Source: Skermanella mucosa (GTDB lineage: Bacteria > Pseudomonadota > Alphaproteobacteria > Azospirillales > Azospirillaceae). From it: a DNA stretch of 64,000 nucleotides. A program made the translations under genes and the position numbers. Below are positions 42,192-44,160 of the stretch, piece by piece. Within the stretch, counting starts at the first letter, position 1. The number at the start of each line of letters is the position of its first letter. The stretch is taken from NCBI RefSeq assembly GCF_016765655.2, contig NZ_CP086106.1:404001-468000 (forward strand). Direction: 5' to 3'. The notes under the pieces are model-generated. The model was not told the origin of the DNA. It saw only the letters and a list, made by a program, of their open reading frames with translations, and ran no database searches.

Positions 42192-43004
42192 ATGGCCGAG
42201 ACTAACGCGCATGCCACCGGGGGCGGTCACAGCCACCCATACCATCTGGTCGATCCCAGCCCCTGGCCGTTGCTCGGCGCCTTTTCCGGCGGCCTGCTGG
42301 CGGTCGGCGCCATCCTGTTCATGCATGGCAGCGGCTGGCTGCTGCTGGCGCTCGGCTTCGTCGCCGTCCTGGCCGTCATGGCCGGCTGGTGGCGCGACGT
42401 CCTGAAGGAGGCGGTCCGCCAGAAGGCCCACACCCCCGTCGTCAAGCTGGGCCTGCGCTACGGCATGGCGCTGTTCATCGCGTCGGAGGTGATGTTCTTC
42501 GCGGCCTTCTTCTGGGCCTTCTTCGACGCCAGCCTGTTCCCCAAGGAGGCGATCGGCGGGGTCTGGCCGCCCCAGAACATCGAGACGTTCAACGCCTTCC
42601 ACCTGCCGCTGATGATGACGCTGATCCTGCTGCTGTCGGGCACGACGGTGACCTGGGCGCACCACGCGATCATCGAAGGCGACCGGCGGACGGCCAGCGT
42701 GGCGCTCGGCCTGACCGTGCTGCTGGGCGTGCTGTTCAGCGGCTTCCAGATCTACGAATACACCCACGCCCATTTCGGCTTCACCGACGGCATCTATCCG
42801 TCGACCTTCTTCATGGCGACCGGCTTCCACGGTTTCCACGTCATCATCGGCACGATCTTCCTGGCGGTCTGCTGGTGGCGCACGGTGGCCGGGCACTTCA
42901 CGCCCAAGAGCCATTTCGGCTTCGAGGCGGCGGCCTGGTACTGGCACTTCGTCGACGTGGTCTGGCTGTTCCTGTTCGTGTCCATCTACTGGTGGGGAGC
43001 CTGA
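42192..43004 (+). CDS. ctaE: Cytochrome c oxidase subunit III
   Basis: 270-residue, seven-span subunit III that stabilises the oxidase. Recognised from HPYHLVDPSPWPLLGAFSGG, FFAAFFWAFFDASLFP, GTTVTWAHHAIIEGDR, the GFHGFHVIIGTIFLAVCW segment and the terminal WYWHFVDVVWLFLFVSIYWW. It lies 25 bases after ctaG. The DUF983 gene appears to start five bases after its stop, using a ribosome site within the last codons of this gene. Confidence 0.96.
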   Translation: MAETNAHATGGGHSHPYHLVDPSPWPLLGAFSGGLLAVGAILFMHGSGWLLLALGFVAVLAVMAGWWRDVLKEAVRQKAHTPVVKLGLRYGMALFIASEVMFFAAFFWAFFDASLFPKEAIGGVWPPQNIETFNAFHLPLMMTLILLLSGTTVTWAHHAIIEGDRRTASVALGLTVLLGVLFSGFQIYEYTHAHFGFTDGIYPSTFFMATGFHGFHVIIGTIFLAVCWWRTVAGHFTPKSHFGFEAAAWYWHFVDVVWLFLFVSIYWWGA

Positions 43005-43008
43005 CGCC

Positions 43009-43413
43009 CTGACGCGAACCCGGCAACCTCGGGTCTCTCCCCTCGCCGCGGCACTGAAGTGCCGGTGCCCGCGGTGCGGGGAGGGGCGTCTGTACAAGGG
43101 CTTCCTGTCCGTCTCGGACCGGTGCGAGGTCTGCGGCCTCGCGCTTGCCCGCGGCGACAGCGGCGACGGTCCCGCCGTGTTCCTGACCTTCATCCTGGGT
43201 TTCACGGTGGTTCCCGTCGCGCTGTGGGTCGCCATGTCGGTCGATTGGCCGCTCTGGCTCCACGCCGTCGTCTGGACCGTGGTGATCCTGGGGCTGGCGC
43301 TGGGGATGCTCCGGCCCGCCAAGGCCTACCTGATGGCCCTCCAGTTCCGCCATCGCGCCAGCGAATACGATATCCCCGAGACACCGGAGTCTCGGGCCGA
43401 CCCCCGGAATTGA
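43009..43413 (+). CDS. DUF983 zinc-ribbon membrane protein, probable CTG start
   Basis: 134 residues. After a short N-terminus comes a double zinc knuckle: C-R-C-P-R-C-G at the start and C-E-V-C-G later, then two membrane spans around 55-75 and 80-100. DUF983 genes belong to oxidase operons. No ATG, GTG or TTG lies in frame ahead of the zinc motif; the first in-frame GTG (43177) would cut off the knuckles. CTG at 43009 is preceded by GGTGGGGAG (42991-42999) at nine bases, and the reading LTRTRQPRVSPLAAALKCRC fits the family start, so a CTG initiator is proposed. A sequence error is the alternative. Confidence 0.72.
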   Translation: MTRTRQPRVSPLAAALKCRCPRCGEGRLYKGFLSVSDRCEVCGLALARGDSGDGPAVFLTFILGFTVVPVALWVAMSVDWPLWLHAVVWTVVILGLALGMLRPAKAYLMALQFRHRASEYDIPETPESRADPRN

Positions 43414-43419
43414 GGACTT

Positions 43420-44160
43420 ATGGCTGCCCTTGCTGACAAGAGCGGGCGGCGTTTCCGCCCCGGTCTCGGCGCCACCCTGTCCACCCTGGTGGCCGTCGCG
43501 ATCATGGTCGGCCTCGGCACCTGGCAGGTCGAGCGCCTCTCCTGGAAGAACGACCTGATCGAGCGGATCGAGGCCGGCCTGAACGCCGACCCGGCCCCAT
43601 TGCCGCCCCGCATCGACGACCCCGCGGGATGGGATTTCCGCCGCGTCTCGGTCACCGGCGAATTCCTCCACGACCAGGAACTGAACCTCGCCGCCCGCAG
43701 CTTCAACGGCCGGATCGGCTACCATGTCGTGACGCCGCTGCGGCGCGACGACGGCACCACGGTACTGGTCAACCGCGGCTGGGTACCGACGGAGGCGCGC
43801 GACCCCGCGGCCCGTCCCGACGGTCTGCCCGCCGGGACCGTCACGGTCGACGGCATCGCCCGCGTGCCGCCGGGGCCGGGCTGGATGCAGCCGGACAACG
43901 ACGCCGCCGCCAACATGTGGTTCTGGTACGACATCCCGGCCATGGCCGTCACGGCCGGCGCGGACAACGCGCTGCCGCTGGTGGTCGAGGCGGGACCGGC
44001 CGCCAACCCCGGCGGCCTGCCGGTCGGCGGCCAGACCAACGTCACCATCCCCAACAACCACCTCCAGTACGCCGTCACCTGGTATGGGCTGGCGCTGACG
44101 CTGCTCGCCGTCTATGTCGCCTCCCAGTGGCGGCGCGACCCCGACCGGGAGCCGCGCTGA
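43420..44160 (+). CDS. SURF1 family protein
   Basis: 246-residue heme a/oxidase assembly factor with an N-terminal span (about 14-34) and a C-terminal span (about 215-235) around a periplasmic domain. Family segments are VGLGTWQVERLSWKNDLI, DPAGWDFRRVSVTGEFLHD, VTPLRRDDGTTVLVNRGWV and the terminal NNHLQYAVTWYGLALTLL. AGGA precedes the ATG by five bases. It closes the aa3 oxidase cluster. Confidence 0.95.
   Translation: MAALADKSGRRFRPGLGATLSTLVAVAIMVGLGTWQVERLSWKNDLIERIEAGLNADPAPLPPRIDDPAGWDFRRVSVTGEFLHDQELNLAARSFNGRIGYHVVTPLRRDDGTTVLVNRGWVPTEARDPAARPDGLPAGTVTVDGIARVPPGPGWMQPDNDAAANMWFWYDIPAMAVTAGADNALPLVVEAGPAANPGGLPVGGQTNVTIPNNHLQYAVTWYGLALTLLAVYVASQWRRDPDREPR

Follow-up and report, generated by a model that had tools for sequence, protein, structure and literature searches.

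The question raised by this locus is at which codon translation of the DUF983 gene in the aa3 oxidase operon of Skermanella begins. Within the window, by which we mean the whole 64,000-nucleotide stretch of Skermanella mucosa DNA analyzed here, open reading frames and a Pfam profile search give the operon order UbiA-type (ctaB-like), CtaG/Cox11, ctaE/COX3, DUF983 and SURF1. The ctaE gene, which encodes cytochrome c oxidase subunit III, lies on the forward strand at 42192..43004 (open reading frame; Pfam COX3, 6.8e-100) and ends in YWWGA followed by TGA, and SURF1, the next operon gene after DUF983, occupies 43420..44160 of the same strand (Pfam SURF1, 1.8e-57). Between them, at 43009..43413 of the forward strand, is a frame under purifying selection that encodes a small zinc-ribbon-like protein of 134 amino acids (Pfam DUF983, 4.4e-28). 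With ctaE on one side and SURF1 on the other, this gene shares its operon place and its Pfam match with the DUF983 (PF06170) genes of bacterial COX operons as described in the available text of PMC4013037, which also reports COX4-like sequence signatures in DUF983. Two further DUF983 matches in the same genome are distant (36% and 30% identity), indicating that the gene under study is the oxidase-operon copy. Its protein carries two knuckles, CRCPRCG (43060..43080, forward strand) and CEVCG (43123..43137, forward strand), which are probably metal-binding and whose cysteines, in codons counted from CTG 43009, are C18xC20xxC23 and C39xxC42.

An ORF scan reveals that the DUF983 frame is open from an in-frame TGA at 42712 and that ATG, GTG or TTG is first encountered at GTG 43177 (43177..43179, forward strand; codon 57), where the mechanical ORF list of the window truncates the gene. 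A start at this GTG would cost the protein both CxxC knuckles, as the initial annotation had stated, and re-reading the frame for an upstream ATG or GTG yielded none back to the stop at 42712. The same annotation had proposed that the gene starts instead at a CTG (43009..43011, forward strand) lying five bases after the ctaE stop. The closeness is as described, although the exact count needs amending: four bases intervene between TGA 43002-43004 and CTG 43009-43011, and five is reached only by counting to the C of the codon. The DUF983 frame is shifted relative to that of ctaE and is open through the ctaE end. When compared with PF06170 (cut-off 22.6 bits), the CTG-started protein scores 97.9 bits and covers profile positions 1-85 of 85, while the protein started at GTG 43177 scores 46.4 bits from profile position 29.

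We compared this arrangement among five Skermanella genomes (G000-G004), the other four of which have DUF983 proteins 86-99% identical to that of the window. Since G000 and G003 are 99% identical at DUF983, the sample amounts to about four well-separated sequences, and the five genomes, being related, do not count as independent events. All five share the common ctaE end, TGA, four variable bases and CTG (TGA-N4-CTG), and the CTG is also present in public records of S. stibiiresistens (L016) and S. aerolata (L017). The CTG is constant across the five genomes, whereas not one of the 12 codons from 2 to 13 is invariant; within codons 1-17, identity in all five is confined to codon 1 (CTG) and codon 14 (GCG). 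This combination of a fixed CTG and variable neighboring codons excludes, for practical purposes, the explanation that an ATG, GTG or TTG was misread as CTG in sequencing or assembly, a concern raised at the outset to which the same codon in five genomes is the answer. In S. stibiiresistens (G004; L006), five extra codons lie between the CTG and the shared segment, and the CTG is still in place.

The lack of a standard start able to give the conserved protein holds for the window and for four of the five Skermanella genomes. The exception is G004, where a start at either of two in-frame codons, the GTG at codon 14 or the TTG at codon 21, would leave both knuckles intact. An ATG occurs at codon 38 of G002, downstream of the first knuckle, and G001 has no standard start anywhere in its first 57 codons, codon 57 being GTT. 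The first knuckle is identical in all five genomes, and both cysteines of the second are likewise kept in all five (CECCG in G001). Pairwise dN/dS values, summed over the ten pairs of the five Skermanella sequences, are 0.38 for codons 2-17, 0.12 for codons 18-56 and 0.14 for codons 57-134, indicating that the stretch from the first knuckle to GTG 43177 is as constrained as the rest of the protein. Translation from GTG 43177, giving a protein without knuckles, is thus very improbable: the codon is the first standard start in the frame and the truncated piece still lies above the Pfam cut-off, but such a start is at odds with purifying selection on codons 18-56, with the retained knuckle cysteines and with the GTT that replaces the codon in G001.

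Within codons 1-17, a start-like NTG is found in all five genomes at codon 1 (CTG in each) and at codon 16 (CTG in four, TTG in one). Translation could therefore be imagined to begin at codon 16, CTG 43054, just before the first knuckle, and in some distant relatives an ATG does lie close to this position, although further ATGs precede it. However, codon 16 is preceded by little Shine-Dalgarno complementarity (+1.9 in four of the five genomes, -2.9 in one), and the dN/dS of 0.38 over codons 2-17, together with a YPRVSP-type segment shared with Azospirillaceae, suggests that the stretch before codon 16 is probably translated. We consider a start at codon 16 very improbable, if slightly less so than one at GTG 43177.

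The position of CTG 43009 was compared with the DUF983 starts of the family. A DUF983 match was obtained in 77 of 82 family genomes, and the best locus was read in 73 (five Skermanella and 68 others); weak matches (G035, G062, G070 and G071) and genomes with no match (G051-G055) were left out, and duplicates were not counted (L094 repeats G059, read as L046; L095 and L099 come from family genomes that were in the count already). An order-level search returned the same 82 genomes and added nothing. The end of ctaE lies at most 400 bases upstream in 67 of the 68 non-Skermanella loci. A standard start is present 36-75 bases before the first knuckle in 68/68 of these loci, whereas it is present in 0/5 Skermanella, the 68 including 44 genomes of one genus (g3), which make up most of them, so that these counts are not independent events. 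Taking the candidate nearest to -49 gives 33 TTG, 32 GTG and 3 ATG, and when the tally is confined to loci offering one candidate (55 of 68), it is 31 TTG, 22 GTG and 2 ATG. By the nearest-candidate pick, an ATG start is therefore rare for DUF983 in this family (3/68; L026-L093). In eight family loci (L058-L063, L065 and L066), the first cysteine of the first knuckle is absent, the motif reading RSVCPRCG or RSACPRCG.

Alignment of the starts with those of homologues, a check suggested in the initial annotation, favors the CTG, with which the starts of sister genera align. In L030, a TTG at -51 opens LTETHYPRVSP, which aligns with LTRTRYPRVSP from the CTG of Skermanella G003, so that the residues following the two starts resemble each other. 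In L070, the ctaE stop is followed by four bases and then a TTG at -51; this is the only family or class locus with the Skermanella layout. Several sister loci (L069, L071 and L075) have an in-frame stop a few codons before the TTG start, which ties the start to that place. Judged from these alignments, the Skermanella CTG occupies the start position of its sisters and is one base change from their TTG or GTG. Thus, the CTG is kept in close relatives and is aligned with the standard starts of farther ones, and DUF983, which begins with CTG in Skermanella, begins with TTG, GTG or ATG in the rest of the family loci that were read. The ctaE C-terminus ends right after WWGA in Skermanella and has a further tail in many relatives; with this variation in the C-terminus, the distance from the ctaE stop to the DUF983 start varies widely.

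The Shine-Dalgarno-like stretch GGTGGGGAG lies inside the ctaE end at 42991..42999 on the forward strand, nine bases before the CTG, with an anti-Shine-Dalgarno duplex energy of -7.0 that is equal in all five Skermanella genomes. Its position is as the initial annotation had given it. Its value as evidence is weaker than was implied, because GGTGGGGAG coincides with the coding sequence for the WWGA end of ctaE and because 6.7% of 3000 random window positions score equally, so that by this measure CTG 43009 does not stand out clearly. When the 100 bases surrounding the start are folded as RNA, part of the stretch falls in a stem, a result that we do not rely upon.

An SD-like stretch also precedes the stop at the RF2 frameshift site. 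The resemblance of the sequence just before the ctaE TGA to that site, together with a DUF983 frame that is shifted relative to ctaE and open through its end, would be consistent with DUF983 being made as a CtaE fusion, by a +1 frameshift at GCC-TGA and with no separate start. We regard such a fusion as very unlikely. By our reasoning, an Ala tRNA slipping from GCC to CCU would pair poorly there; the sister loci L064, L069, L071 and L075 start after in-frame stops; and the base after the ctaE TGA is not kept among the Skermanella genomes, being C in three and G in two.

We also examined a class sample of 240 alphaproteobacterial genomes, of which 119 have a DUF983 match. Three of these belong to the family, 87 loci were read, and 29 were left out (28 weaker matches, and G177, whose match begins at contig base 39). 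All 87 loci were placed by anchoring with tblastn, and the ctaE end lies at most 400 bases upstream in 78 of them; a few may be other DUF983 copies. A standard start is found 15-90 bases before the knuckle in 84 of the 87, the exceptions being L103 (G151), L146 (G205) and L147 (G121). Combined with the family, 152 of 155 non-Skermanella loci (68 family and 87 class) have a standard start in this interval, which is a further argument against GTG 43177. A rough nearest-candidate pick gives 36 ATG, 22 GTG and 13 TTG for 71 class loci in which a placement that missed 13 of the 87 located a standard start.

In each of the three class loci without a standard start, a CTG lies at the ctaE stop. In L103 and L146 the two codons overlap as CTGA, and in L147 the CTG lies one base past the ctaE TAA; the ctaE ends and DUF983 frames were checked in all three. 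L146 is the best of them, because its CTG directly follows an in-frame TAG that leaves only 15 codons before the knuckle. Among nine scored loci from relatives of G205, a standard start is found in 8/8 that are uncut. G121 is assembled in two contigs with 100% completeness. G151 is fragmented and 82% complete, so that a sequence error is possible there; neither G121 nor G151 has another member of its family in the genome set. As a control, we counted the standard-start loci in which a CTG also occurs between -4 and +6 bases of the ctaE stop; there are 22 among 142 (family and class, ctaE end found). Such a CTG thus often arises by chance, and the CTGA overlaps of L103 and L146, considered as a telling sign, are weakened accordingly. 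Recurrence of a CTG start at the ctaE/DUF983 junction in G121, G151 and G205 is therefore no more than a lead. A broader reading is that the alphaproteobacterial junction has been selected for weak, coupled non-AUG starts that keep DUF983 far below the oxidase subunits, with CTG adopted independently in at least four lineages (Skermanella, G121, G151 and G205), recurrently and not by accident. The control makes this reading less likely, and we regard it as unlikely.

Start-codon picks were also made for the neighboring genes in the 30 family loci with flanks (five Skermanella and 25 others). For ctaE, these are 26 ATG, 3 GTG and 1 TTG, with L046 misplaced; for SURF1, they are 13 ATG, 16 GTG and 1 TTG. 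DUF983 has zero ATG picks in the 25 non-Skermanella flanked loci. ATG starts are therefore fewer in DUF983 than in ctaE, but this shortage is not peculiar to DUF983, as SURF1 is also GTG-rich.

Taken together, the comparisons make it very probable that the Skermanella DUF983 gene between ctaE and SURF1 starts at CTG 43009, as originally proposed; the codon is present in 5/5 Skermanella and aligned with the TTG and GTG starts of sister genera. Among the points against it, CTG is a common codon and could be kept simply as an encoded leucine, and the GTG at codon 14 and the TTG at codon 21 of G004 are other possible starts. On balance, the CTG is conserved and very probably a real start, and its coupling to ctaE is probable.

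Genes at coupled junctions have overlapping or near stop and start codons, such as ATGA, and the Skermanella junction likewise puts its start very close behind a stop codon. It differs in that the start is a CTG, four bases after the TGA; what is directly observed is this TGA-N4-CTG geometry. In the mechanism that we infer, ribosomes ending ctaE at TGA 43002 could reach both GGTGGGGAG and the CTG four bases downstream, and some of them would initiate at the CUG with fMet-tRNA, helped by GGTGGGGAG. The product would be the full-length 134-amino-acid protein with both CxxC knuckles and a methionine as its first residue, made at a level below that of ctaE. In E. coli complexes, first-position CUG pairing is weak with a variant initiator tRNA, and CUG complexes are less stable with the wild-type initiator tRNA as well, according to the available text of PMC11497404. 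Weak pairing and lower complex stability would lead one to expect low output from such a start.

CTG starts are rare yet already known. In ribosome profiling of Caulobacter crescentus, also an alphaproteobacterium, 74.3% of starts are ATG, 14.5% GTG, 10.3% TTG and 0.7% CTG, as given in the available text of PMC4117421. The CTG starts of Caulobacter are measured, and in one species, whereas that of Skermanella is deduced from sequence, is conserved across the genus and always has the same spacing to the ctaE stop. Among the papers listed in our literature searches, no title announces a comparison of conserved bacterial CTG starts; a search on DUF983 yielded one paper, and among the matches listed in a further search none mentions Skermanella.

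The finding is thus, on solid grounds, a correction to annotation and not a new kind of biology. Gene finders limited to ATG, GTG and TTG would truncate the Skermanella DUF983 gene, with the loss of its probable metal-binding knuckles. The additional interest is mild and lies in the genus-wide conservation and in the possibility, so far unproven, that CTG starts recur at this junction. A comparatively supported CTG start that keeps its spacing to the preceding stop throughout a genus is also a clean natural test case of how far coupling could rescue a weak start codon.
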